Source: Chitinophaga pinensis (lineage in GTDB: Bacteria; Bacteroidota; Bacteroidia; B-17B0; Aurantibacillaceae). From it: a stretch of 64,000 bases of DNA. Numbering within the stretch: position 1 is the first letter of the stretch; each line of letters begins with the position of its first letter. The stretch covers positions 1 to 64,000 of the forward strand of contig CAMAPT010000020.1 of NCBI GenBank assembly GCA_945860225.1, in the 5' to 3' direction. A program made the position numbers and the translations under genes. The notes under the pieces were generated by a model. That model ran no database searches and was not told the DNA's origin. It saw only the letters and a list, made by a program, of their open reading frames with translations. Below are positions 42,084 through 58,255 of this stretch, in pieces.

Positions 42084-43088
42084 CTACCTAAATAGAGAAA
42101 TATGACCTTGACGGGTAATTTTTTTCTCTGTATTTTTTTGAATAGCATCTAAACGGTACACGTAAACATCATCCGGGCATGGATTTCCTTTATATTTCCC
42201 ATCCCATTTTCCACCAACGGTATTAGAGACGTATACAATATTGCCCCAACGATCAAAAACGGTGAGTGAAAAATACGAGTACTCGCATTGAAATAATGGA
42301 CAAAACAAATCGTTCTTTTCATCATCATTGGGCGAAAAACTATTTGGTATATATAGGTCGCATTCACAATTTTTAAACTTAACCCAAACACTATCGGTAT
42401 TTGCCCCACATTCAGGAGATATACTTTTAACCCAATAAGGACCTTCTTTTGATATGTGAATACTTGAAGAAAAAGCCCCGGTATTCCAATATAACTTTAC
42501 ATTATCCGGAACTATTTTCATAGATATGATTTTATTTGTCTCATTTTCACAAAACTGTAATTCTGAACCAAAATTAGGCAGAGCATGATTAGCCTGTTTT
42601 ATACGAAAAGTATCTATAAAATAACAGCCTTTATTACTGGCTTTAACCCAATATAATCCAGGTTTGTCAAACTTACATTGATTTAATGTTTCTCCTGTCA
42701 TCCACAAATACTGATAATTGAAATTTTTCATTTTTATCGCTACAGAACCTTTGCAGATGAAGGTATCTCTCACCGATATTTTTGGTTTATCATTTATCAC
42801 TAAATAAGTACTATCTACAAGTTTATCTTTACCATCAGAAATTGTCACTATATGCAATCCATCATGTTTAATATATATTTGTTTGGCATGCACTACTATT
42901 GCCTTTGGAGTTAACCAACTATATGTTGCTGAAATTGGAATTTTGTTTTCAGAAAATTTTAATAAAAATGAATCTCCACTACATATAAAGGTTGTATCAG
43001 GTAACTGATTTAATGCTTTTATTTGAGCTGTTCCTTCAAAAACAAACATTATGAACAAGATAAAAAATATGTGTGTTTTATTTTTCAA
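42084..43088 (-). CDS. T9SS type-B sorting domain surface protein
   Basis: 334 aa secreted protein. It begins with a signal peptide (ILFIMFVFEGTAQ), with a TTG start, since the first ATG would cut it. Several Ig-like/PKD-like segments follow, with paired Cys, for example TFICSGDSFLLKF and TFICKGSVAIKM. The C-terminal about 90 residues are the gliding-motility-associated CHU_C/type-B sorting domain: CDLYIPNSFSPNDDEKNDLF, SLTVFDRWGNIVY and GKWDGKYKGNPCPDDVYVYRL. It is exported by T9SS to the cell surface. The binding target is unknown. It follows the propeller kinase by 54 bp. Confidence 0.85.
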   Translation of the reverse strand: MKNKTHIFFILFIMFVFEGTAQIKALNQLPDTTFICSGDSFLLKFSENKIPISATYSWLTPKAIVVHAKQIYIKHDGLHIVTISDGKDKLVDSTYLVINDKPKISVRDTFICKGSVAIKMKNFNYQYLWMTGETLNQCKFDKPGLYWVKASNKGCYFIDTFRIKQANHALPNFGSELQFCENETNKIISMKIVPDNVKLYWNTGAFSSSIHISKEGPYWVKSISPECGANTDSVWVKFKNCECDLYIPNSFSPNDDEKNDLFCPLFQCEYSYFSLTVFDRWGNIVYVSNTVGGKWDGKYKGNPCPDDVYVYRLDAIQKNTEKKITRQGHISLFR

Positions 43089-43142: not shown

Positions 43143-46070
43143 TTAAATTTGTAAAGAAATTGTTATTATAGTTCCGCGTCCTGTTTCAGATACATCTGAC
43201 TTGTCTTTTATTTCAACTTTTTGTTGTTTACCTGTTAGTTTTGTATTAAGCTCCAAAATATTTTCAATTGTTTTAGTGCCTAGCGATTTATGTCCTGCCT
43301 TAGCATTTTGCTTTGCCTTATTAAATCCTATTCCATCGTCTTCAATTATTATCAATAAACTTTTACTGGTGTCTTTTTTAAAATGAATATGTAGTGTACC
43401 GTGTTCGTGTTTTGGTAAAATGCCATGTAAAATAGAATTTTCGACATAAGGCTGAATAATCATATTCGGAATTTTAATTTCCAATGTATTTATATCGGAA
43501 TCTACCTCTATTTTGAAATCAAATTTGCCTTTAAATCGTTCTTTTTCTAAATCTAAATAATAATTTAATCGAGTCAATTCTTCGTGCAGGGTAATTTCAC
43601 TTTGTGAGGCTTTTTCAATTATCATTCGGATTAATCTAGAAAACTTCGCTAAATATTCACTTGCTTTTAATGAATCATTCGAATGAATATAATTTTGAAT
43701 AGATGTTAATGAATTAAATATAAAATGTGGGCTCATCAACGAATTCATGGCCTGATGTTTTAATAAATTAACTTGTCTATCTTCTTGAGCTCTCTGCATG
43801 ACTTTTAAACGAACTCTTTTAACCCAAATAAAAACAATGGTTATCATTAAAATAATTCCAATTAGAATGATAGTTAAAATAAACCAAATAGTTTGCGTGA
43901 AAGGAATTTCTTTTTGTATGAAAATAGTTGTTGGTACGGACCAATTTATACCATCGTAGGAACAAATAATATCTAATTGATGATTTCCTCCATCTATAGC
44001 CGTCAGATGAATTTGTCTGTTATCTAAATTGAACCAACGAGTATTATATCTATATCGATAAAATTGCTTGTTGGGTTTTGCATATAATGGACTAGAAAAA
44101 TTAATCGTTACATCAGATTGATTTGGGGACAATCTCAACTGATTATTTTCAAAATCTATCGCTTTGCCATTTGACTCAATTGTTGTTATATATGCTCTGT
44201 TTGGCATTTTAATATTCATTAACAAATCCTCCAAACTACAAATGGTAATACCTTTATCTGTACAAATGGCACAATGACTCCCTTGAAACACTATATCGTT
44301 AATAGTATTTGACAATAAGCCATTTGATTTATTGTATATGAAAATCGGATTAAATTTCAAGTCACAAATAAATAAACCATCTAATGTGGCTAACCAAATT
44401 TTATTTTGATATGTTTTTATTTTCTTCACCGTTGTTAACGGATAATTACCAACCTGTTGAATTAAAGTTGAATCTTCCAAAACAGTAATCCCATTTTCAT
44501 GAGCTAAATAGATTTTATTATTAAAACTGCTTATGTGATTTACATAAAAATTAAATGCTGGATGATTGTAACTAGTATAAGTTTTTGTTGAAAATGAATA
44601 ACGACTTAGTCCGTCTGAAGTTCCAATTAGCAATCCATTGGAAGACTCATACAAAGCATTAATTTTTGTTCGATAATCTGGAAATGAAATAAGCGTGTCG
44701 CTAATGTTATATTTATCTAAAGATTGTTTAATCGTTTGATATAAATTACCTTGCCGGTCGGCGAGGTAAGCAGCCGACGGATTTTTAGAATAACTAAACA
44801 AACGTGAATCGAGTGGTTTAAAATGAAAAAATGATTTACCTATTAAAAACTCTTTTTCTTGACTATTTATTGAACCCGTCTTAGCATAAAGAACAGAATT
44901 ACCATAAGGGTAAATACCATAAATGGTTTCATTAAATAAATCGTCAGGAGAAACTACAACCTGGGCTTGGTGGTTCATTCTATCATAAATAAACAGCCCA
45001 TTATTAGTACCTACGAGTAGATGATTATTTACAAAAGCGGCATTTAAAACTGTTAAGATTTTTCTGTTAGATGCGAACGAAATATTTTGAAATTTAGGAT
45101 TTTGTATAAAGTAAACCCCATCATTAAAAGTCCCTATCCATATATGGTCATCCGCATCCTTATATAAACAATTAATCAGAACTTTATCAATCCCCAATAA
45201 ATCAAACGCATCATAAAGAACATTGTTCTCAATAAGATACAAATTATCATCAGGCGTATTGGTAAACCAAATTCTGTTGAATTTATCGACAACTAATTTA
45301 TTTATTTCGGTAACTCCGCTCGTATTAAAAAAGTTGCTTGTTTTTTGTGTTTGAATCGAAATAGTTTGAACACTAACACTATCCTTCATGCATAGTATCT
45401 TATTATTACTACCCATGTAAATATTTCCCGATTCATCTTCAGTAATCACATATATGGGTTCATTGCCTATCAAATCAATTTTTATTTGTTTTCCATCCTT
45501 GAATTCATACAATCCATTGCTTCTTCCAACTAAAATTTGTTGTTGAGAAGTTTTATAAATGGCAAAAGCCCGATTCTCTTTTTCTTTTTTCTTAACTTCA
45601 TCATCAGACTGATGACCATTTTTAAGATTAATAACCGAAACTGAATTTTGAAAATTAAGGGAATAGGCATACTGATCTTTTAAAATAAGCTCATCTGTAG
45701 CCTGATTAAATTTTAATTGCTTAATAATAGTAGCTTCAGTCTTTTTTTTGAAATACTCGTAAATACCTTCCCGTTGAGTTACAATAAGTAAATTATTTTC
45801 TTGATTAAACCCTATATTCCTAATACTATTAGACTTAAGAGTTTTAGGTTTTATTTTTTCAAATTTATACCCATCAAATTCATACACCCCATTCTCAGTG
45901 GCTAAATGAATGACGTGCTGAGCATTTTGTTTGATTGAAAAAACATTAGTGTTGCTTAATCCGTCTTCAGGACCATAATGTTGGAAAGAAAAGCTTCTAT
46001 TTTGACCCTTTGCAAAAAAAGACAAAATAAGAGCCATAAAAGCTAATCGGTATGCGGTTTTTATAAGCAT
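43143..46070 (-). CDS. Propeller-domain sensor histidine kinase, LytS type
   Basis: 975 aa from the ATG at 46070. After a signal peptide come two-component regulator propeller repeats (about 25-640; QHYGPEDGLSNTNVFSIKQ, VWIGTFNDGVYF-like blades) and a Y_Y_Y-type beta domain (about 640-725). A transmembrane helix (about 730-755) leads to a LytS/PF06580 kinase. Its phosphorylation site lies in MSPHFIFNSLTSIQNY, where most relatives have QMNPHF. IQPYVENSILHG and IEDDGIGF are the ATP-binding boxes. No LytTR regulator gene is adjacent. Confidence 0.92.
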   Translation of the reverse strand: MLIKTAYRLAFMALILSFFAKGQNRSFSFQHYGPEDGLSNTNVFSIKQNAQHVIHLATENGVYEFDGYKFEKIKPKTLKSNSIRNIGFNQENNLLIVTQREGIYEYFKKKTEATIIKQLKFNQATDELILKDQYAYSLNFQNSVSVINLKNGHQSDDEVKKKEKENRAFAIYKTSQQQILVGRSNGLYEFKDGKQIKIDLIGNEPIYVITEDESGNIYMGSNNKILCMKDSVSVQTISIQTQKTSNFFNTSGVTEINKLVVDKFNRIWFTNTPDDNLYLIENNVLYDAFDLLGIDKVLINCLYKDADDHIWIGTFNDGVYFIQNPKFQNISFASNRKILTVLNAAFVNNHLLVGTNNGLFIYDRMNHQAQVVVSPDDLFNETIYGIYPYGNSVLYAKTGSINSQEKEFLIGKSFFHFKPLDSRLFSYSKNPSAAYLADRQGNLYQTIKQSLDKYNISDTLISFPDYRTKINALYESSNGLLIGTSDGLSRYSFSTKTYTSYNHPAFNFYVNHISSFNNKIYLAHENGITVLEDSTLIQQVGNYPLTTVKKIKTYQNKIWLATLDGLFICDLKFNPIFIYNKSNGLLSNTINDIVFQGSHCAICTDKGITICSLEDLLMNIKMPNRAYITTIESNGKAIDFENNQLRLSPNQSDVTINFSSPLYAKPNKQFYRYRYNTRWFNLDNRQIHLTAIDGGNHQLDIICSYDGINWSVPTTIFIQKEIPFTQTIWFILTIILIGIILMITIVFIWVKRVRLKVMQRAQEDRQVNLLKHQAMNSLMSPHFIFNSLTSIQNYIHSNDSLKASEYLAKFSRLIRMIIEKASQSEITLHEELTRLNYYLDLEKERFKGKFDFKIEVDSDINTLEIKIPNMIIQPYVENSILHGILPKHEHGTLHIHFKKDTSKSLLIIIEDDGIGFNKAKQNAKAGHKSLGTKTIENILELNTKLTGKQQKVEIKDKSDVSETGRGTIITISLQI

Positions 46071-46142
46071 AGAAGACAAGCTAAAGTTAACAAAATAAGT
46101 TAAAATACTTTAGTAATAGCCTTGTTCCGATATTTTTTCAGT

Positions 46143-46946
46143 TTACTTTCCTGAAACAAAATATTTTTTGGCTTCAGGCATAAAAGCTTTCAGATTCGCA
46201 ATTCTGGTTTCATCACTTGGATGTGTGCTTAAAAGTTCAGGTGGTTTAGTTCCTGAAGATGCTTGAGACATACGCTCCCAAAATCCAATCGCTACTTCTG
46301 GATTATACCCTCCCATTGCCGCAAAAACAAGTCCCATTTTATCAGCCTCAGTTTCATGAGTTCGACTATATTTAAGTATGCCTAAATTGGTACTTAAACC
46401 ATAAGCCTGCTGAAATATGGATTGGGTTAATGCCGGTTTTTGTTGCATAGCTGTTGATAACACAGCAGCGCCAAATTGAACAATAAGCCCCTGACTCATT
46501 CGTTCATTTCCGTGACGTGCAATTGCGTGAGCAATCTCGTGTCCCATTACCACTGCTAAACTAGCTTCATCTTGCGTTACAGGAAGTAACCCTGTATAAA
46601 CTACTACTTTCCCTCCTGGCATACACCAAGCGTTTACTATATTTTCATCAACCACATTAAATTCCCATTTAAAACCATTTAACTGTGAGCTTAATCCTTT
46701 ATCAGTATAATATTTTTCTACTGCTTGTTGTATTTTAGTCCCCACTTGTTTTACCATAATGGTTCTATTATCTGAAGCGGGTAATGGTTTGTTTTGAGTC
46801 AAAAATTTATCATACTCGGTCAAACCCATAGCTATCATGTCTGTTTCAGGAATTAAACTAATAGACCGACGCCCAGTAATGGCATTTTTTTGACAGGATA
46901 AAACGAATATTATAAAAACAGAGAATAATATGATGTTTTTTTTCAT
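46143..46946 (-). CDS. M48 family metalloprotease lipoprotein
   Basis: 267 aa lipoprotein with lipobox VLSC (Cys about 18). The zinc site HEIAH is at residues 136-140 (VMGHEIAHAIARHGNER), with the third ligand in THETEADKMG near 203. It contains NAWCMPGGKVVVYTGLL, as in LoiP/YcaL/BepA-type periplasmic proteases that act in outer-membrane quality control. It is 14 nt after clpS. Start and length are normal. Confidence 0.93.
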   Translation of the reverse strand: MKKNIILFSVFIIFVLSCQKNAITGRRSISLIPETDMIAMGLTEYDKFLTQNKPLPASDNRTIMVKQVGTKIQQAVEKYYTDKGLSSQLNGFKWEFNVVDENIVNAWCMPGGKVVVYTGLLPVTQDEASLAVVMGHEIAHAIARHGNERMSQGLIVQFGAAVLSTAMQQKPALTQSIFQQAYGLSTNLGILKYSRTHETEADKMGLVFAAMGGYNPEVAIGFWERMSQASSGTKPPELLSTHPSDETRIANLKAFMPEAKKYFVSGK

Positions 46947-46960
46947 GATTAATTTAATAT

Positions 46961-47242
46961 TTATTGAATTTCGGCCGTTAATCCTTTTTCTTGAAGCGTT
47001 TCACAAATAGGTTTCATTTTATCAAAAGGACCTATTTTCACAATGCATTTTCCTGTATAGTGAATTATAGTGGCGCATTGTTCTGCCTGCAAACTATCGT
47101 GTTGACAATAGGCTACCAAACATTCAATTACCCATTCAAAAGTATTAACATCATCATTAAATAATACTATTGTCCTTAAATCGTCTTCTTGAGATAATAC
47201 CTCTAACTCAAGTAATTTTTCAGTTTCTGTATAATTTTTCAT
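46961..47242 (-). CDS. clpS: ATP-dependent Clp protease adaptor ClpS
   Basis: 93 aa cytoplasmic adaptor that delivers N-degron substrates to ClpA/ClpC-type unfoldases. The core motif TIVLFNDDVNTFEWVIECL with the Asn-Asp pair that contacts N-terminal residues is intact. YCQHDSLQAEQCATIIHYTGKCIVKIG follows, and the N-terminal extension of 25 residues is short and acidic. It is 15 nt after the giant gene and 14 nt before the M48 gene, all on the same strand. Confidence 0.95.
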   Translation of the reverse strand: MKNYTETEKLLELEVLSQEDDLRTIVLFNDDVNTFEWVIECLVAYCQHDSLQAEQCATIIHYTGKCIVKIGPFDKMKPICETLQEKGLTAEIQ

Positions 47243-47257
47243 ACACTTTAATGATAT

Positions 47258-50200
47258 TTATTTTATCAAATATTGAGAAGCTTCAGATCCATATAATTTT
47301 TTGCCATCCTTATAAACGGTTATAAACGCATCTGTTATGCCTAATGAAATAGCTTCATCTTTTAATGATTTAGCAAACGATAACCCATTAAAATTACCAA
47401 TCGTGTAAATATACAATCCATTAATAGCTAGACTTTGAATAGGCCAAGTTTTGATATTTAAAAATTTGGATGCAACAGCATTAGGCACTTGATTTTTATA
47501 AGCTCCAATTTGAACAACATAAGATATCCCAACAAAATCGGTTTTAACGCCATTTTCTGATGTAGGAGCGGGCCCTTCTTTTATACCATTAGAAAAAGGT
47601 GCCTGGGTAGGAATATTATTTGGTTGATTCGAATTGAGTGTTCTTCCGGATGAATTATTAATATTGGACGCCACGGGAACTTTAGCTACTGCATTTACAT
47701 TATTATTGGCAATAGCTGTCGTATTTTCTGCAATATTATTAGAACCTGACTGAGGAAAAACAATTGGATTTTCGACTTCAAGTTTCAAGTTTTGATTTTC
47801 TTTCTGTAATTTTTGTCCTTCGCCAAATGGAATTCGCTTAGCGTTATAATATGCTGATATAAATGCATCTTTTACCCCTAACTCAATAACCCGTCTTTTG
47901 TCTTCAATTAATCTTTCTCTTTGAATATAAATACCAGCCGTATATCTGTAAAGACCGTTTGGTAATTTTTCAGTATAAATAGGTTTTAAATTAAATAATT
48001 GTGTTCGGGTTACTTGCTTTGAAAACACACCTATCTGAACAGTATATAACAGTCCATTCATTTTCTCTAATTCGCCGTTTACAATTTCAGAATCTATATT
48101 ATTGCGATTGGTTTCATCTATGGTTGCAGATGGCAGTTTCGTATCGTTGGTCATTGTTGCCATATCATTAGTTGATTCTGCATTAAATGGTACATTTGTT
48201 TTTGTAGTTAAACCAGCACTGGTATTTTCAGTCATTTCTATTTTTTGACCAGCAGCCTTAGCCTGATTCGTTGCTTCATTGAGATTGATACGTTTTCCGT
48301 TATAATAAGCCACGACAAACGCATCCTTAAATCCTAAATTTCTTAAATCATTCTTCACCGCATTGGCACCTGCATATTGTTCAAAATTACCTGCCATATA
48401 GCGAATGTAACCGCTTGGTGCTGTTTGAGCAATGATAGGACTCAATCCCTTAAATGTATTGTTTGGCAATTGAGTTTTAAAAGCACCTATCTGAACCTTA
48501 AAAATCAATCCATCTTCAATTTTTTCATCAAGAGGTATTGGTTTTTCATCTGAATAAACATTCGTATTCTTTACGTCAATTCCTTCTTCATTTATCTTAA
48601 CCAAATTAGTTTGTTTAATAACTTTCGATGTTGCATTGATAGTTGAAGTAGAACTTACTGAATTGGCATTTGTATTATTTTGAACAGAACTTCTATTTAA
48701 TTCGGATAGCTCATTTGATGTTTCGGATTTGTTAGGTGAAGCCTTATTATTAGAAGAAACCGTTGAATTTTGAACACCTACATTTTCATTTAACGCTATA
48801 CCTAAAGAATTACTCAACTCATTAAGCAATTGTATAGCCTCTTGTGCCTGTGTGTTGGCATCAATTAAATATTTTTTCTTCAATTCAAATTCTGTAGATT
48901 GATTTGCTTGAGTAATTAAATCTTGATTTTTCTTAAATATATTTTGAGCTTTTTCTTTTAAAACGATTTGATTTGAATTAAGATTTTTAGGTAATTTCCC
49001 TAAAAGCATCTTGTATTCACTTTCATTAGCCTTAGCCAATAAAATTAATCCTTCAATATGCGCATTGTTATTATTGATAGCATTTGCTTTGGTTGTTTTG
49101 AATTTAGAAACGAGTTCTTTCTCATCTAATTGATTATTTACTTCATGCAACTTATAATCAGGGAATTGTTTTTTATACTTTTCTAACAAAGCATTTTGCT
49201 TTAATAATGCTTCTGCTTCTTTTTCTTCAGCATTACTGTATGCTCCCAACATGGCCACATCATTTTTATATCCTTGGGCTTCATTTCTTATTTGTTCAGC
49301 TTGTCTAAATAATGTATTTACTTCATTTACAGTTGTATTTGAGCCACCTAATTCTGATATATTTTTCGCTTCAGCCATTTTTGACAATTCCGTCAAACTT
49401 TTTTGATTTGCTTCAAAACTTACTTTATTTAATTGTTGTTGCAGTTTGGCCAACTTAAGTTTTTTAGCTAAAGCATTAGCTTCAATATTTTTAGCTTCTT
49501 TCAAATCTGCCTCTTGCCCCTCATCCGATTTTGATTCGGCATTTTTCCTTAATTCTAGAGCATCATTATTGAGTGACTGAATCTCTACTGTTAAAGCTAA
49601 AATAGCGTCGTTAATGTTACCTGACTTTTCAGTATTATTACTTTTTTCAGAACCTAAATCTAAACTTTCTAGTTCTATATTCAATTGTTTATCAATCTCT
49701 AAAGCTTTGTTTATTTTCGCTAAAGCTTTTTCTTTTAAAGCAATAGCTTCATTGTTTTTATAATTACTGAAATTTTTAATAGTTATCTCTTCAGGATTAT
49801 TAAGTGTTTTTTTCAATTTTGGCACTTCCACGGCTAAATTGATTTTTTCTTCTGAATCAGCGCTTACAAATTTATTATTCTCTTCTGCTATTTTCCCTTC
49901 AGACTGATTGCGAGTTCGTTCAGCTAATGTATCATTCTTAGCGACAGTATTATTCGATAATCGAACCTCCTGATTGTTTTGTTGTGAATCGACCAACTTT
50001 GTTTTTTCAGATGTTTTAGCTCCATTTCCTGTTTCAACTACATTATTGTCTTTATTATTAGGCGCATCATTGTTTGTTGGACTTTGAGTATTTTGTCCAT
50101 CCTTTAAATTAGTAGATTGTATAACTTGTTTTTTTGACGATTGTGATACATCTAAATTTTCAGAAGTTGAAGTGTTTTTTATATTTAGATTTTCCTCCTC

Positions 50201-53200
50201 CTTAGCTGTTTTCTTTTCATTTTTTTGATTTGATGACATAGAAGATGAAGCGATAGAGTCAGTTGACACATTCACAACATTTGTAGTTGTTTTCGTGTCT
50301 TTTTTAATTACTTCAGTTTGCTTATTTTCAACTTTCGAAGCACTCTCATTTTTATTGTATTTATCTGCAACACTATTTGAATCATTAGTGGTTTCTATCG
50401 ATTTATTAGAATTTTCTGAAGAATTAGTTATAGCATTATTACTGACATTGTTTTTTGCATCATTACTTATATTATTATTTACATTATTACTTACATTAAC
50501 AGATTTTGAAGGAACGGATGAGGTGCTTTCAAGCACATTTTCTTTATTATTATTTTGCACTTTCTTATTGTTTGAAGCTAAAACACCTGTTGGTTTGGTA
50601 ATTTCACGAAGTAATATAATTGCCTCTTGTGCATATTTATTAGCCTCTATCAACATTTTTTTCTTCTCATCCAATTCAACTGCTTGCTTCGCTCTTTGTT
50701 TTAATTCTTCATATTTTTGATATGACTCACGTGCATTTCCTTTCAAATTTTGTTGTTCTGGAGATAAAGATTGAGGTAATTTATTCAAAATGGAAGTATA
50801 TTCCTTACCATTTGCCTCAGATAATAACATCAATCCCTCTATGTGCATTTGGTCATTGTTATTCGATTTTGATTTTGCGTTATCAAATTGATTTTTTGCC
50901 TCTGGATTAACTGATGACTCTTGTGGTTTCGGAAATGAATAATCTGGAAAATGTTTCCTGTATTTTTCAAATAATGCCAACTGTTTCTCGAGTGCCAAAT
51001 TCTCTTTTTCTTCAGCATTACTATAGCCACCCAGCATAGCAGCGTCATTTTTATATTGACTGGCTTCTCGTCGCAATTTTTCAGCTTGCTGAAATAAAGC
51101 ATCTGGTTCTTCACTCGATGTATTTTTAGGATTTAATTCGGCAATTTGTTTTTCTTTTGCCATTTGTGATAATATGCTCAAATGTTTGCTATTTTCTTCG
51201 TAGGTATTTTTACTAACTTGAAGATGAAGAGTTGCCAATTTAACTTTCTTTGATAATAGACTAGCTTCTAAAACTTTAGCTTTATTTAATTCATTTTCTT
51301 TTTCAACTCCAGCTTTTGAGTTTGCAGTTTTTCTCAAAAGACTAGCTTCATCAGTCATTGCTTGTATTTCTTTGGTTAAATCATGAATACTATCCAGCTT
51401 TGTTGATTGATTGTTTTCTGCTAATTGTAGTACTTTATCAAGTGAAGTAATAATTTTTCGATCATTATTGAGGGCTGCATTAATTTTCAAGGAAGCTCTT
51501 TCTTGCAGAGTGACAGCCTCTTGATCTGTATAAGGATTAAATACCAATAATTGAATTTCTTCTTCTGTGTACAAAGCCACTTTTAACTGTTTCGTTTCTT
51601 CAACAATTTGAGGTTCTGAAGATTTCTTTGGCTCTAAAACTGAAACTTTAGGATTAAGATTTTCAACAAGTTCTTGTTTTTCCTTCAATTCACTTGTAGA
51701 CTGTTTATTTGCTGTGATTTGTGGCTCAGTCTCTGAGTTAATAGAATTATTATTTTTATCCTTTGAAACCTCATTCAATGTTTTTTGAGCCTCAGTATTC
51801 TCAACATTACTTACATATTTAACCGTATCTAATTGAGACTTAACAATTACGTTATTCCCTTTTGTTGTATTCAATGATTTGTTTGCTACAACAGTATCTT
51901 GAGATACATTAGTTTGTTTACTTACATCGTTAGTATTTTGAATATTACCAGACTGTGTATCCTTATTTTTATTTAAAACAGTTGCTTCTTGTGATGAAAC
52001 ATTGTTCTGATCATTCTGAGTTTTTACTTTTTCATTTTCTGAAACAGAATTTGTATGAGTTGGTTCTTTAGTATCGCTAGCAATTTGTGATGGAGATAAA
52101 ACAGCTTCTTTAGCATTATTTAAAACTTTAATTGCTTCAAGCTGATATTCATTAGCTTTTAATAACAAATTGGCTTTTTCTGCTTGAGAATTGGCGACGG
52201 ATGATTGACGTATAAACTCATTAGCATCTGCCTTAAGTTTGTCAGATGCTGTTTTCAAATCCTTTGCTAGCTGATTATTTTTGAAATCAGGGTTCTGAAT
52301 TAAGTTATCATTTTCGTTTTTCAGCTCTTTTTCATTCAATCTATTTAATGCAGAATAAGCATCAATTTGTAAAACAGAAGTTTTATTGATTTCTTCATTC
52401 AATTTTTTAACCTCTAAGCTAGTATTTGCGGCATTAGAAGTGGCGGAAATTTTATAGTTGGGATTAATTTTAGCCAACATATCGAGCGCTTTTTGTTGTT
52501 TTGCCAATGCCTCAGTTTCCTTTTCTTCAGCATTACTCAATCCTCCCAATTTTGCAGCCTTTGATGCATATGCTTCTGTTTCTGAACGAATTTTTGCTGC
52601 TTGATTAAAATTGACAAATGCTTCATTGATTAATGTATTAGCCTGAGCTACTTCTGGGTCTGTTTTTTCGATACTTAAAGCTTGTAATTCAGTTAAATGA
52701 TTCAGATTATTTTCAAAATCAATTCCATTTTTAGTTTTTGCTATAACAGCCGCTTCTGTTTTTTTGTATATGGCAGATTTTTCAATTTCCTGCGCTTGTT
52801 TCAATAAAATTTCTTTTTCTGCGTCAGTTTTGCCATTAGCATCTTTCCTCACGGTATAAGCTTGGTTTATTAATTTTTCGGCTTCCTTAAGCAAATCATC
52901 ATGTTGTTGTTCCGAATTATTACTGAGTGCCTTGGTGGTTGATGCAATTAAATTTTGAAGCTTTACTTCATTTTGTCTTGCTAATTCTAATTTTTTAGCG
53001 ACTTCCTCTTTTTCATTCTTATACACATCATCTTCGCGTTTATAGTTTTTAAGTTGATTTATCGATTCAGTATGAGCATCCAAACCTGTTTTTAAATCGC
53101 CCAATTCATTAACCAAAACTGCTGGATTAGAGGTTAAACTAATATCAATTGTCTTAAACTCATTTGCTGTTGCAAGCCGCTCATCAATTAATTTTTTATC

Positions 53201-56173
53201 TCTGCTTAATGAATTGGATAATTTTTCAGCTATGGCAGAATCTTTATTCAGATTTGATTTTTTCTCATCATTTAATAGAGAAGTGGAAGTTTGATTTTCT
53301 ACTTTATTTTTTTCTGATAATGCAGTTTGATCGCCAATTGATGACGAATTATTATTTGAAGGTATTGATTGAACAGATTTATTTTCTTGTTTATCTGTAT
53401 TATTAGTTTGTTGAGTTGTTGAATTTTCTGTAGCATTTGATTGTTGAGTAATGGCAACGCTTGTTTCATTTTCTTTTATCTTCCGATCTGTAACAACCAA
53501 CCTTTCTTCAACTTCTGTTTTTAATTTTTGTAATTCGACTAATTCTTTTTCAAAACGCTGTTTTTCATTCACATCATTAATTTTTGATGTTTTATTTTTG
53601 ACAGCAACAATCGCATCCGATAAATCTTTTTTATAGGCATTCAATATCTCATTTTGCTTTATCAGCTCATTTTTGTCTGAAGATTGTATCGAAGAGGTAT
53701 TTAAATCTTGTTTATATTTATTACTAATTGTTTCGTAAGATAATTTTTCTGTCTGATTTGTGACTCCAGTAATTTGTTTTTGGGTTTGATTGGGACTATT
53801 AGCAGTTTCCGAAACAGCAACTTCATTTCCTCTATCCGTTATAAATTGATTAGCAACTTGTAACTCCTGATTAGTACCTTCCAATGCGCTTCTTATTCCG
53901 TCAATTTTTTGTTGATTGGTTGCCAATTCTTTGTTTTTCTCATCTAAATCATTGTTCAATTCCTGAATTTGAGCCTTAATATTTTCTTTAATCGATTTAT
54001 CTTTTTCACTCGCTAAATCATTTTCTAGATTTTGTTTTTCATCATTAATTGATTTAATTTCATTAAAAATAGTACTATGTTGTTTCTCTATTTTGGTTAA
54101 TTCTTGTTTTTTTAGCTCAGTTTCAGCTTTAATAGAGGCATAAAGTTCATCAGACTGATTTCTTTGTTTAGATAATTGATCTAATTCTTTTTGTATTTCT
54201 TGAAGCTTATTTAATGCTTCAATGTTATTTTTATTTTTTGTAACCGTTTCTAACTGAGCTATGTATTGATTAGATATTTCAACTTCTTTTTGTTGCCTTT
54301 CAGCATCTACTTCTAATTTTTTAGCAATATTGGTAGCTATGTTTGCCATATTTGTGGCAATTTTTGCTTCTTCTTTTAATTTGATTGCCTTAGCTAATTC
54401 TTCATTTTTTACAATTTCATCGGTAATATTTTTTGAATTCTCAATAATTTGGTCTGCTTCCTTTTCTTTTTCTATAGCCTCAGCCGTTTTTTGTGTTGCT
54501 AATCCAAAAGCGTCAATCGCTTCTTGCTTTAATTCTTTAGCTTGATTGGCGGCATCAATGGCATCTTCTTTTGCCATAGTAAGCAACTGCTCATTTGTGA
54601 CATTCGTGTTGGTATTGTTATTTTTATTAGAATTTTGATTTGTAGCAATTTCATCGCTTTGCACAGTTGGATTATTGGTTGCTACTGAAGTAAGGGTTTG
54701 ATTTTCACTTTTCACTTCATCATTTTTAACCACATTTTTACTATCATCATTATTTACAAACTCACTTTCATTGACATCCAATCGTGCTTTTTTCTCAATC
54801 AAATCAATCATCACTGCATAATTTTCTTCCACTACATTTCCATCGAAATAATTGATGATTTTCAATTTTTTATTTTCATACGAAATAATTTGTTTATAGG
54901 GCTTTAAGTTATAAGCAACAGGTATCTGAACTCCTTCAGATTGGGTTGTAAAACCAGGAGTCTCTACAGTAAAAATAAATTTACCGCCATTCGGCAACTC
55001 CATATTATAATCTCCATTATCCTGAGCTTGAAAAGTGCCAACAATTTCTCCATCAGACATGTTCTTAACCGTAATTTTTGATTTCAAACTTTGCGACACT
55101 TCCTCTTTAACAACTGTTCCTTTAAGGAAAGCATAATTAATAGGTTTTCTCTCCGTATTAATTTTCAGAACATCTAATTTTCCATAAGGACTATATCTAC
55201 CCGTACTAAAGTAAGCCGTTTTTTCAAGCGAATCCGTAACAAATAAAATATCATCATCCGGTGAATTAATCGGAAATTCTAAATTTTCAGGTTTACTCCA
55301 CAATTGAGTCTCTTGATTAAACGTGGTTTTAAACACATCATATCCACCCATGCTATTATGCCCCTTCGAACTGAAGTATAATGTTTTTCCGTTAGGATGT
55401 AAAAATGGATAATCTTCATCAAATTCAGTATTAATAACTGATGGTAAAGACTGAGGCTTACTCCAACCGCCATTTGGTAAGCGATTCACATAGTATAAAT
55501 CTTTTCCTTTATTCCCCCCCTCTCCGTAACTCGAATAATAAAGTCTTTCGCCTGATCTTGGGAGATAAACCACTGATTTTTCCTTTTTCTTTTTATCATA
55601 GCTAGATTTATATTCATCTGGCTTTACTAATAATTTACCTCCTATATCTTTGACATCATAAGCTTTAAAATAATCAACTTCATTTAGCTGTTTTTTATTT
55701 ATAATTACCAAGTCTGTTAAATTTGACAATAATTGTTTACCGTTTTTACAAGCCTGTATTTCACGGTCAACTTCTAATTTTTTAATAGTAGATGAGCTTC
55801 CTATTTTTTTATACTCATTATAATACTTAATCGCTTCATCAAATCGATAATTAATATGATAAGTTTTTGCTAAATAAAACATGGCTTCGGTAGAAGCCTC
55901 TACTGGATTTTTGACAGAAATTTGTAAGTAGGAATAAGGTTTTTTTTTATCTGGCTCTATGTATAACATGCATACTGCCAGTTTATAGTTGTAAAAAGGA
56001 TCCTTTGGATACAACGAAACCAATTGAGCATACGATTTATATGCAGAGTGGTAATCATTTTCTTCAAATTGTTTTTCTGCCATTTTTTTTAAATCACCCT
56101 CATTTTTTACTTGAGAATAAAAATTTAGGCAATTAAAAATTGCAAAAAACAAGAAAAAGTAGCATAAACGCAT
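47258..56173 (-). CDS. Giant periplasmic coiled-coil protein with TPR, PD40 and three SPOR-like domains
   Basis: 2971 aa from the ATG at 56173 (an in-frame TTG 48 nt earlier would spoil the signal peptide). Order by residue: signal peptide 1-22; TPR-like helices 25-125; PD40 beta-propeller repeats about 210-345; carboxypeptidase-regulatory-like beta domain about 348-410; Asn/Ser-rich linker; coiled coil about 530-910; three helical modules of about 340 residues (1006-1364, 1528-1868, 2124-2461) with Asn/Ser/Lys/Gln-rich linkers; three SPOR-like domains (about 2551-2630, 2703-2786, 2879-2968). Each SPOR-like unit opens VQIGAF/VQIGVF/VQIGAY and ends with DAF(V/I). The N-terminal layout resembles T9SS-associated PorE. 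SPOR domains bind glycan strands stripped of peptides. The function is unknown. It is followed by clpS 15 nt on. Confidence 0.9.
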   Translation of the reverse strand: MRLCYFFLFFAIFNCLNFYSQVKNEGDLKKMAEKQFEENDYHSAYKSYAQLVSLYPKDPFYNYKLAVCMLYIEPDKKKPYSYLQISVKNPVEASTEAMFYLAKTYHINYRFDEAIKYYNEYKKIGSSSTIKKLEVDREIQACKNGKQLLSNLTDLVIINKKQLNEVDYFKAYDVKDIGGKLLVKPDEYKSSYDKKKKEKSVVYLPRSGERLYYSSYGEGGNKGKDLYYVNRLPNGGWSKPQSLPSVINTEFDEDYPFLHPNGKTLYFSSKGHNSMGGYDVFKTTFNQETQLWSKPENLEFPINSPDDDILFVTDSLEKTAYFSTGRYSPYGKLDVLKINTERKPINYAFLKGTVVKEEVSQSLKSKITVKNMSDGEIVGTFQAQDNGDYNMELPNGGKFIFTVETPGFTTQSEGVQIPVAYNLKPYKQIISYENKKLKIINYFDGNVVEENYAVMIDLIEKKARLDVNESEFVNNDDSKNVVKNDEVKSENQTLTSVATNNPTVQSDEIATNQNSNKNNNTNTNVTNEQLLTMAKEDAIDAANQAKELKQEAIDAFGLATQKTAEAIEKEKEADQIIENSKNITDEIVKNEELAKAIKLKEEAKIATNMANIATNIAKKLEVDAERQQKEVEISNQYIAQLETVTKNKNNIEALNKLQEIQKELDQLSKQRNQSDELYASIKAETELKKQELTKIEKQHSTIFNEIKSINDEKQNLENDLASEKDKSIKENIKAQIQELNNDLDEKNKELATNQQKIDGIRSALEGTNQELQVANQFITDRGNEVAVSETANSPNQTQKQITGVTNQTEKLSYETISNKYKQDLNTSSIQSSDKNELIKQNEILNAYKKDLSDAIVAVKNKTSKINDVNEKQRFEKELVELQKLKTEVEERLVVTDRKIKENETSVAITQQSNATENSTTQQTNNTDKQENKSVQSIPSNNNSSSIGDQTALSEKNKVENQTSTSLLNDEKKSNLNKDSAIAEKLSNSLSRDKKLIDERLATANEFKTIDISLTSNPAVLVNELGDLKTGLDAHTESINQLKNYKREDDVYKNEKEEVAKKLELARQNEVKLQNLIASTTKALSNNSEQQHDDLLKEAEKLINQAYTVRKDANGKTDAEKEILLKQAQEIEKSAIYKKTEAAVIAKTKNGIDFENNLNHLTELQALSIEKTDPEVAQANTLINEAFVNFNQAAKIRSETEAYASKAAKLGGLSNAEEKETEALAKQQKALDMLAKINPNYKISATSNAANTSLEVKKLNEEINKTSVLQIDAYSALNRLNEKELKNENDNLIQNPDFKNNQLAKDLKTASDKLKADANEFIRQSSVANSQAEKANLLLKANEYQLEAIKVLNNAKEAVLSPSQIASDTKEPTHTNSVSENEKVKTQNDQNNVSSQEATVLNKNKDTQSGNIQNTNDVSKQTNVSQDTVVANKSLNTTKGNNVIVKSQLDTVKYVSNVENTEAQKTLNEVSKDKNNNSINSETEPQITANKQSTSELKEKQELVENLNPKVSVLEPKKSSEPQIVEETKQLKVALYTEEEIQLLVFNPYTDQEAVTLQERASLKINAALNNDRKIITSLDKVLQLAENNQSTKLDSIHDLTKEIQAMTDEASLLRKTANSKAGVEKENELNKAKVLEASLLSKKVKLATLHLQVSKNTYEENSKHLSILSQMAKEKQIAELNPKNTSSEEPDALFQQAEKLRREASQYKNDAAMLGGYSNAEEKENLALEKQLALFEKYRKHFPDYSFPKPQESSVNPEAKNQFDNAKSKSNNNDQMHIEGLMLLSEANGKEYTSILNKLPQSLSPEQQNLKGNARESYQKYEELKQRAKQAVELDEKKKMLIEANKYAQEAIILLREITKPTGVLASNNKKVQNNNKENVLESTSSVPSKSVNVSNNVNNNISNDAKNNVSNNAITNSSENSNKSIETTNDSNSVADKYNKNESASKVENKQTEVIKKDTKTTTNVVNVSTDSIASSSMSSNQKNEKKTAKEEENLNIKNTSTSENLDVSQSSKKQVIQSTNLKDGQNTQSPTNNDAPNNKDNNVVETGNGAKTSEKTKLVDSQQNNQEVRLSNNTVAKNDTLAERTRNQSEGKIAEENNKFVSADSEEKINLAVEVPKLKKTLNNPEEITIKNFSNYKNNEAIALKEKALAKINKALEIDKQLNIELESLDLGSEKSNNTEKSGNINDAILALTVEIQSLNNDALELRKNAESKSDEGQEADLKEAKNIEANALAKKLKLAKLQQQLNKVSFEANQKSLTELSKMAEAKNISELGGSNTTVNEVNTLFRQAEQIRNEAQGYKNDVAMLGAYSNAEEKEAEALLKQNALLEKYKKQFPDYKLHEVNNQLDEKELVSKFKTTKANAINNNNAHIEGLILLAKANESEYKMLLGKLPKNLNSNQIVLKEKAQNIFKKNQDLITQANQSTEFELKKKYLIDANTQAQEAIQLLNELSNSLGIALNENVGVQNSTVSSNNKASPNKSETSNELSELNRSSVQNNTNANSVSSTSTINATSKVIKQTNLVKINEEGIDVKNTNVYSDEKPIPLDEKIEDGLIFKVQIGAFKTQLPNNTFKGLSPIIAQTAPSGYIRYMAGNFEQYAGANAVKNDLRNLGFKDAFVVAYYNGKRINLNEATNQAKAAGQKIEMTENTSAGLTTKTNVPFNAESTNDMATMTNDTKLPSATIDETNRNNIDSEIVNGELEKMNGLLYTVQIGVFSKQVTRTQLFNLKPIYTEKLPNGLYRYTAGIYIQRERLIEDKRRVIELGVKDAFISAYYNAKRIPFGEGQKLQKENQNLKLEVENPIVFPQSGSNNIAENTTAIANNNVNAVAKVPVASNINNSSGRTLNSNQPNNIPTQAPFSNGIKEGPAPTSENGVKTDFVGISYVVQIGAYKNQVPNAVASKFLNIKTWPIQSLAINGLYIYTIGNFNGLSFAKSLKDEAISLGITDAFITVYKDGKKLYGSEASQYLIK
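48790..49800 (-). repeat. Giant-protein helical module, copy 3
   Basis: About 337 codons starting near KNFSNYKNNEAIALKEKA and ending near LLNELSNSLGIAL. It contains LGAYSNAEEKEAEAL, shared with copies 1 and 2. Confidence 0.7.
50433..50498 (-). repeat. Asn-rich low-complexity linker
   Basis: A run of near-repeated codons giving patterns such as SNNVNNNISNDAKNN, in the linker after module 2 of the giant protein. The DNA is a degenerate repeat of ACATTATTA-like units, a likely slippage site. Confidence 0.6.
50570..51590 (-). repeat. Giant-protein helical module, copy 2
   Basis: About 340 codons from near NPYTDQEAVTLQERASLKIN to near LLREITKPTGVLAS, with LGGYSNAEEKENLAL at the centre. It is the closest match to copy 3. 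Confidence 0.7.
52080..53155 (-). repeat. Giant-protein helical module, copy 1
   Basis: About 358 codons, more divergent than copies 2 and 3, with LGGLSNAEEKETEAL at the same relative place and the motif LLLKANEYQLEAIKVL near its end. Confidence 0.65.
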
Positions 56174-56322
56174 ACCGCTTGTACGAAATCTATGTTTAAT
56201 TTGATTCAGATTTAAATTCAAATATAACGTTTTATAGCCAAATTATAAAGGATAAGACTTTTTGGAAAATACATCTATTAAACGATTATCATACATTAAT
56301 AGCGCCTATCATCCTATAAAAT

Positions 56323-56353
56323 AAAAAAGACTACAAAAAATGTAGTCTTTTTT
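56323..56353 (-). terminator. Terminator of the T9SS type-A protein gene
   Basis: AAAAAAGACTACA (56323-56335) pairs with TGTAGTCTTTTTT (56341-56353) around a 5-nt loop. On the minus strand the stem is followed by a T run. Confidence 0.85.
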
Positions 56354-56375
56354 AATTGTTAAATAAAGAATGTAA

Positions 56376-58103
56376 CTATTTACTTAAAACAACTTTTTTA
56401 GTCACTGTTTTATTAGTTGTATTAATTTTTACAAAATAAGCTCCTTTTGATAAATGAGATAAATCTATATAATTATTTCCTTTTGCTAATTTATTGGACA
56501 ATACTTTTTCTCCTACTAAATTAAATAATTCAAATGAGGACATATTTTCAGTCATAGAGATAATCAATGTACCTGTAGTGGGATTTGGATACACTTTAAA
56601 AAAATCGGCATTTGCTGATTCAATACCTGTACAATTATCTACTTGTACATTATCAGAAGCTGAATTAGAACAATTATTAGCATCTGTATAGATATATGTA
56701 ATTGTATGTGTTCCTACACCTGCAGAAGATGGATTAAAAACACCAGCAGTTACTGCATTACCACTGTAAATACCACCTAATGGAGCACCTCCTGTTAGAG
56801 TCAAATTAGTAACATCATCACATTGAACACCTAAAGAAGTTGTACTTAAAGATACTACCGGTAAACTATTCACTGTGACAGAAGCTACTGAAGTATTTTG
56901 ACAATTATTCCCATCGGTTCCCGTAACCGTGTATTGATTAACAGATGCTGAAGGTGTTACAATGATGTCAGATGTTGTTTCGCTTGAACTCCAAATATAT
57001 GAAGTCGCTCCCGATGCACTTAAAGTAGCTGTTTGCCCAACACAAATTTTTTCAGAATTAACATTTACATTTGGTAAAGCATTTACTGAAACAGAACTTA
57101 TAACTTTGTTTTGGCAACTATTCAATGCTGTACCTGTAACCGTATATTGATTGACCGATGCAGTTGGCGTCACAATAATACTCGAAGTCGTTTCTCCTGA
57201 ACTCCAAACATAAGTATCTGCTCCTGAAACCGTTAAAGTAGCTGTTTTTCCATAACAAATACTTTCTGAATTAACAGTCAAAGTTGGGGTTAATTCCACC
57301 AAAGCTGAAACTGAAGCGCTAGCTGTTCCACAAGCGTTAGTAACATTTAACACATAATTTCCCGTTTCCGATCCCGTTACAGTTGTACTTGCACTATTGG
57401 CCGCACTAAAAGAACCTGTACCTGACCAAGTGTAAGTAAAAGGTGATGTTCCGGATAAACTAGAACCTAATTTTAAAGATTGATTTGAACAAATAGGTGA
57501 ATTATTGCTTACAGAAGATATTGAAGGAACGACACACTGTTCTAATTTAAAATCACCATTAAAATCAGTATCAAAAGAGGAACTGGAAACATAAAAAGGG
57601 AATGTTTGCTTTCCACTCACACTTGCATCAATCGTCACATTTAATACAATTTCCATTGGTTTATTTGCACGCGATTCAGTCGGTAAACCACCAACACAGT
57701 CGTCATTATTCCCCCAAGTTACAACCTGACCACCACCTGGTATGTATGGTTCTTTGGTTCCTCCATCAGCATCCGGACAACCAGAACCAGGCGTATCTTG
57801 TCCCAAAAAATCAGGAGCTGCTGTATTTAAGGTAAATCCCGCAGGTAATGTAATTTCTAATAAATCTCCAAAATCATTATCGTTATTTGTAAGTGTCAAT
57901 ATCAGGTGTAAATCCTGTGTGGAGCCCGGAGCATAGCTATCGGTACAAGTAATAACAGCTGAAATAGCATTTGGTGAAGTCAATCTTGATATAGGCTTAT
58001 TAACACTAGAATGAGATATTTTTTTATTGACTTTGAAACTCGTTTGAGCATTCATTGCGGTAAAAAGAAAAGCAAAAATGCTAGCTAAATATATTTTTTT
58101 CAT
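56376..58103 (-). CDS. T9SS type-A sorting domain surface protein with Ig-like repeats
   Basis: 575 aa from the ATG at 58103, with a TTG further upstream rejected. Signal peptide ends near residue 20 (FLFTAMNAQ). An N-terminal beta domain with a Cys pair is followed by Ig-like repeats. Two consecutive ones are nearly identical (VNSESICYGKTATL and VNSEKICVGQTATL, about 71 residues apart). The last about 75 residues are the type-A sorting domain: VYPNPTTGTLIIS, FNLVGEKVL, LSKGAYFVKI. It is exported and anchored by T9SS. The ligand is unknown. It is monocistronic, with the terminator 23 nt beyond its end. Confidence 0.92.
   Translation of the reverse strand: MKKIYLASIFAFLFTAMNAQTSFKVNKKISHSSVNKPISRLTSPNAISAVITCTDSYAPGSTQDLHLILTLTNNDNDFGDLLEITLPAGFTLNTAAPDFLGQDTPGSGCPDADGGTKEPYIPGGGQVVTWGNNDDCVGGLPTESRANKPMEIVLNVTIDASVSGKQTFPFYVSSSSFDTDFNGDFKLEQCVVPSISSVSNNSPICSNQSLKLGSSLSGTSPFTYTWSGTGSFSAANSASTTVTGSETGNYVLNVTNACGTASASVSALVELTPTLTVNSESICYGKTATLTVSGADTYVWSSGETTSSIIVTPTASVNQYTVTGTALNSCQNKVISSVSVNALPNVNVNSEKICVGQTATLSASGATSYIWSSSETTSDIIVTPSASVNQYTVTGTDGNNCQNTSVASVTVNSLPVVSLSTTSLGVQCDDVTNLTLTGGAPLGGIYSGNAVTAGVFNPSSAGVGTHTITYIYTDANNCSNSASDNVQVDNCTGIESANADFFKVYPNPTTGTLIISMTENMSSFELFNLVGEKVLSNKLAKGNNYIDLSHLSKGAYFVKINTTNKTVTKKVVLSK
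56860..57290 (-). repeat. Tandem Ig-like unit pair inside the T9SS type-A gene
   Basis: Two copies of about 213 nt follow each other, clearly related at DNA level (shared ACCGT-TATTGATT and AAAGTAGCTGTTT blocks). They encode sister Ig-like domains and indicate a recent internal duplication. Confidence 0.65.
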
Positions 58104-58255
58104 ATTTTCCAATTTTTATGGGTTAACACAAATTTATTAAATTTTCACTAAAAAACCATTTTTAAAAGATATTTTGAAACTAAGTCAAAGTTAACCTGTT
58201 AATCTTAACAAAAACTTATCAATTACCCATAACGTAATAATTGTATTTTTACATC

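Follow-up and report, generated by a model that had tools for sequence, protein, structure and literature searches.

A giant, apparently exported protein of Bacteroidota with a PorE-like head, an extended helical body and three SPOR domains at its C-terminus

The locus and its gene neighbourhood

The window, a stretch of 64,000 nucleotides from contig CAMAPT010000020.1 (assembly GCA_945860225.1, Chitinophaga pinensis), carries on its reverse strand a gene for a giant protein of 2,987 residues. The features of this gene and of its immediate surroundings are listed here in the direction of transcription.

56322..56354 (-), terminator-like hairpin of 14 pairs with a T run (consensus match), between the upstream gene for a T9SS substrate and the giant gene
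47258..56221 (-), whole giant gene, a single uninterrupted reading frame of 2,987 aa with a TTG start
56111..56221 (-), predicted signal peptide without lipobox, aa 1-37 (sequence: a hydrophobic stretch, then FYSQ)
55718..56104 (-), TPR domain, aa 40-168 (weak Pfam match; profile match to TPR structures; fold Z 14.8)
55142..55639 (-), PD40/TolB-like propeller strands, aa 195-360, about three full blades (Pfam PD40 E=1.1e-7; strands in the model; TolB)
54842..55141 (-), CarboxypepD_reg/transthyretin-like domain, aa 361-460 (Pfam E=6.5e-4, below the cut-off; fold match)
53837..54598 (-), first long-helix region, aa 542-795 (50-60-residue helices in the AlphaFold model, with pLDDT mostly 85-94)
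52106..52909 (-), body repeat 1, aa 1105-1372 (repeat profile)
50579..51391 (-), body repeat 2, aa 1611-1881 (repeat profile; groups with repeat 3, support 0.993)
48791..49606 (-), body repeat 3, aa 2206-2477 (repeat profile and grouping with repeat 2; a long-helix bundle in the model)
48269..48514 (-), SPOR domain 1, aa 2570-2651 (profile, Pfam, model; conserved Gln, Phe and Arg kept)
47813..48058 (-), SPOR domain 2, aa 2722-2803 (profile, model; conserved Gln, Phe/Tyr and Arg kept)
47273..47530 (-), SPOR domain 3, aa 2898-2983 (profile, model, alignment to CwlC; without the conserved Arg)
46961..47242 (-), clpS, 15 bases downstream of the giant gene (Pfam ClpS E=5e-18)
46143..46946 (-), M48 peptidase with a lipobox-like VLSC, 14 bases after clpS (Pfam E=1.2e-35)

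The initial annotation rightly took the giant to be a single reading frame, but its start at 56173, giving about 2970 residues, is an internal ATG at codon 17. Given that the TTG codon and the N-terminal sequence following it are kept in same-genus orthologues, several of which have no ATG at codon 17, the 2,987-residue form is more likely than the shorter one. The hydrophobic leader and the FYSQ after it suggest cleavage by signal peptidase I. A loose lipobox pattern was absent from the leader region of the giant gene in the window and was matched there in no more than a few of 82 homologues; the giant is apparently an exported, non-lipidated periplasmic protein. A frameshift or misassembly was considered as the cause of its size and rejected: lengths of 1,700-2,500 aa are usual among the relatives, and the extra repeat described below, at only 44-47% identity, is too diverged for an assembly duplication.

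The short gaps of 15 and 14 bases and the terminator-like hairpin upstream make it likely that the giant, clpS and the M48 peptidase are transcribed as one operon. Across 84 loci (a few of which represent the same genome counted twice), clpS follows the giant directly in 51 and is itself followed by the M48 peptidase in 34, with short gaps in many distant relatives; the upstream neighbours that recur are plsY, prmA and tpiA, as read from their sequences. ClpS is a cytoplasmic protein, so the order of giant and clpS may be historical rather than functional.

Two genes near the giant (56376-58112 and 42084-43088) carry T9SS sorting signals, of the Por_Secre_tail and CHU_C types, and would thus encode T9SS cargo. 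Just after the M48 gene and in the same direction lies a 978-residue sensor (43143-46079), which combines Reg_prop propeller repeats with a His_kinase/HATPase end.

A head related to PorE

The initial annotation described a PorE-like front end of TPR, PD40 and regulatory-like domains, and this domain order is borne out by Pfam, profile comparison and structural alignment. By Pfam only PD40 scores above its cut-off; the CarboxypepD_reg and TPR domains are weak by sequence and clear by fold. In the AlphaFold model of the head, calculated from 39 aligned homologues (mean pLDDT 79), a TPR array is followed by about three blades of PD40 strands within residues 195-360 and by the transthyretin-like domain. 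Structural alignment placed the PD40 strands on the propeller of TolB (Z 11.6, 127 residues), and the transthyretin-like domain on the folds of transthyretin and 5-hydroxyisourate hydrolase (Z about 9.5-10).

It had further been supposed that the OmpA end of a PorE was replaced in this protein, and this part of the annotation did not hold. The genome has 20 OmpA matches, several of them in PD40 proteins, and one 716-residue TPR-PD40-OmpA protein (locus L002, 766-2916, on contig 11 of genome G000) adjoins sprA in convergent orientation. The best solved match of this protein is 6TOP, the C-terminal domain of PorE; the protein is a promising candidate for the organism's true PorE. Since the genome keeps a PorE-type OmpA protein beside sprA, and since the head of the giant is 34% identical to that protein over 267 residues, the giant is, by sequence, a PorE-related paralogue and not a PorE with a replaced end.

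A helical body with a gained repeat

Residues 460-2565 consist mostly of acidic helices. The long helical body of the initial annotation is largely confirmed, but it is interrupted by N/S/T/Q-rich linkers, for which model confidence is low (pLDDT below 50). The helices predicted for the first helical part (542-795) and for the last repeat (2131-2485) are 20-60 residues long, their pLDDT lying mostly at 85-97. Matches of the body to pore-forming toxins, ABC transporters and designed bundles, returned by Foldseek and VIA-align, had TM under 0.2 or Z under 9 and were rejected because long-helix arrangements are common.

A repeat of about 270 residues occurs in three copies in the protein of the window, and in two copies in almost every relative of the same genus and in many of the same family. 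The grouping of repeats 2 and 3 (support 0.993) indicates that one repeat was gained in the lineage of the window; the repeat period of about 595 residues explains most of the excess in size over same-genus relatives, which measure 2,103-2,409 aa.

A tail of three SPOR domains

The three C-terminal SPOR-like domains of the initial annotation proved to be genuine SPOR domains by profile, Pfam and fold. A profile built from 39 units matched the CwlC SPOR domain 1x60 at E=3.4e-7 and FtsN (1uta) at E=0.15, and 31 of the 39 units matched Pfam SPOR (PF05036) at E<=1, the best at 1.3e-7. Unit 1 of the window scores 20.8 bits, slightly below the Pfam cut-off of 21 bits. Whole-protein Pfam and NCBIfam scans gave no SPOR match, detection needing single units and the profile, and a genome search with the Pfam SPOR model missed all three units of the giant.

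The RNP-like beta-alpha-beta fold expected of SPOR is present in the predicted tail units, which match CwlC with probability 1.00 (TM 0.74 of target) and RlpA 6i05 with probability 0.95; for units 1 and 2 the model shows a loop at the place of the first SPOR helix. Domain 3 aligns to the CwlC SPOR domain with Z 7.0 (rmsd 2.1 over 72 residues, 31% identity), and the tail aligns to the RlpA-glycan complex 6i09 with Z 6.4.

In RlpA and FtsN the glycan is contacted by a Gln on the first strand, an aromatic residue four positions later and basic residues on the sheet (PMC6895207). Among 70 homologues of the giant the contacting Gln is kept in 100%, 100% and 86% of units 1, 2 and 3, respectively, an aromatic residue is found at Gln+4 in nearly all units, and the Arg aligned with FtsN R285 is present in 97% of unit 1 and 99% of unit 2; unit 3 mostly has Ile or Val at that site. 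The domains are basic, with net charges of +3 to +7. With Gln, aromatic residue and Arg all kept, units 1 and 2 look fit for binding denuded glycan; unit 3, with Ile or Val for the Arg, is less certain and may not bind glycan.

Distribution of the family

The scan of named genomes gave 80 loci, which together with loci from a further genome search represent 79 distinct complete proteins. These range from 1,183 to 2,987 aa (median 2,122), and 75 of them have two to four SPOR units (three in 65, two in 8, four in 2), the remaining 4 having one or none. Dozens of orthologues share this tail, which excludes a chance architecture. The body is about 900-2,100 residues long in all lineages and its sequence changes freely. 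Carriers include Bacteroidetes MAGs, Crocinitomicaceae, Vicingaceae, Cryomorphaceae and other Flavobacteriales, Bacteroidales MAGs and the isolate Salibacter halophilus. In the order to which the window belongs, nearly all of 87 genomes have the gene. Its seeming absence from four genomes (G010, G451, G494 and G475) looks like the result of assembly breaks, as C-terminal fragments with three SPOR units were found there in shorter frames. A literature search for the combination of TPR-PD40 head, giant body and SPOR domains returned nothing relevant, and the giants are apparently a family without earlier description in Bacteroidota.

Several related proteins were seen in passing. A 981-residue frame of a same-genus genome (L060, 5592-8537) contains two tandem copies matching the head of the giant, and many genomes of the order have comparable frames of close to 985 residues. 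Contig 28 of G030 and contig 1 of G028 encode shorter proteins (about 500-830 residues), often in adjacent pairs, that contain between one and three units of this SPOR type. Two loci (L059 and L147) have homologous heads and bodies, and ends without detectable SPOR that share YKLEF/YRLEF...GVSQT...PFVD; this end is perhaps a diverged or a different wall domain. A record labelled Candidatus Dependentiae (L133) has a typical Bacteroidota head of the giant family, and its label is probably a binning or naming error.

A proposed role in the cell envelope

We propose, with a probability of roughly 0.5, that the giant is a periplasmic scaffold which docks on denuded glycan through its SPOR domains and presents its PorE/TolB-like head to a partner. 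The SPOR domains would attach to glycan strands from which the peptides have been removed, such as occur at the division septum, and the presence of three of them would give avidity; the long body would serve as a flexible tether or spacer; and the head would hold a partner protein near the outer membrane, as suggested for the PorE head. The notion of a link to the wall within the periplasm, put forward at the outset, is kept here; the architecture is well supported, and docking and tethering are inferred. The conserved gene order with clpS and the M48 lipoprotein peptidase suggests a general role in the envelope or in division, not one dedicated to secretion. By analogy the docking place is probably the division site: the known SPOR proteins function without exception in division or morphogenesis (PMC6895207). 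A more specific version, in which a lineage-specific giant of Bacteroidota links the outer membrane to denuded glycan at the septum, one long flexible protein doing the work of Tol-Pal or FtsN-like proteins elsewhere and its body length being tuned by the gain of repeats, is tentative and in our judgement rather improbable.

The head could instead bind an outer-membrane or ring component of the T9SS or of gliding, which the SPOR tail would fix to the wall, as has been proposed for PorE and its OmpA domain. The PorE domain order of the head and its identity to the PorE-type protein of the genome speak for such a tether, as does the presence of sprA, the gene for the T9SS translocon, in every good-quality giant-bearing genome tested; the only giant-bearing genomes without it were a few incomplete ones. 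The distribution of sprA is far wider, however: it was found in 304 of 395 sampled Bacteroidota genomes, against at least 2 with the giant (a lower bound, with the best 8 candidates scored per genome), in all 62 good genomes of the order of the window, and in all 17 genomes tested from other families, with or without the giant. The giant thus occurs in T9SS genomes as far as tested, and the T9SS does not need the giant. No T9SS machinery gene lies near the giant, whose neighbourhood includes clpS, the M48 peptidase, plsY, prmA and tpiA; the giant has no lipobox; and a PorE-type OmpA protein already stands beside sprA in the same genome. The specific tie to the T9SS first suggested for this protein is not sustained by these observations. 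The C-terminal units are SPOR and further T9SS genomes do have homologues, which leaves the initial annotation unrefuted on both counts, but the gene is missing from most genomes with a T9SS. A PorE-like head alone does not imply a T9SS function, and we consider the tether to the T9SS unlikely.

It is similarly doubtful that the giant is a spacer or ruler whose mainly mechanical task would be to set or limit how far the outer membrane lies from the wall all along the cell, its head being bound to an outer-membrane protein. Such a function would fit the retention of a long body in all lineages despite free sequence change, the three predicted wall-binding units at its end, and the gain of a repeat in the genome of the window without loss of either end. 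Yet the roughly twofold variation in body length and the flexible linkers suit a tether better than a ruler, and SPOR domains are septal wall-targeting modules, known for their association with septal glycan. Least probable is that the giant regulates wall remodelling or the quality control of the envelope together with the co-located M48 lipoprotein peptidase. The order giant-clpS-M48 and its short gaps, here and in many distant relatives, would argue for this, but clpS stands between the two genes and many loci are without one or both neighbours.

For the favoured scaffold, localisation of the SPOR tail would show whether Bacteroidota place very large envelope scaffolds by means of denuded glycan. 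The question concerns a giant exported protein that is kept in almost every genome of its order and in many other Bacteroidota families, and for which the literature searched holds no description.

Comparison with known systems

The closest comparison is with PorE (PG1058) of the Porphyromonas gingivalis T9SS, with which the giant shares the succession of TPR, PD40 propeller and carboxypeptidase-regulatory-like domains, a wall-binding end (predicted in the case of the giant) and export to the periplasm. PorE has a five-bladed propeller and an OmpA domain at its C-terminal end (PMC7192894). In the model of the giant about three blades are seen, and the protein has no Pfam OmpA match and ends in three SPOR domains. 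PorE is an outer-membrane lipoprotein, whereas the giant lacks a lipobox, so that two defining features of PorE, the OmpA domain and the lipobox, are missing from it. The giant also adds a helical body of 2,000 residues, is not near T9SS machinery and does not occur in most genomes with a T9SS.

TolB of the Tol-Pal system is likewise periplasmic, and the PD40 strands of the giant align to its propeller (Z 11.6); the giant has a partial propeller only, set between different flanking domains.

With the SPOR proteins FtsN, DamX, DedD and RlpA of E. coli and CwlC of B. subtilis the giant has in common a C-terminal SPOR domain after long low-complexity or helical linkers, and the conserved Gln and aromatic residue of the glycan site. 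Unlike these proteins, it is without a transmembrane anchor or lipid, its units 1 and 2 are modelled with a loop for the first SPOR helix, and three SPOR domains are combined with a TPR-propeller head in a protein of giant size.
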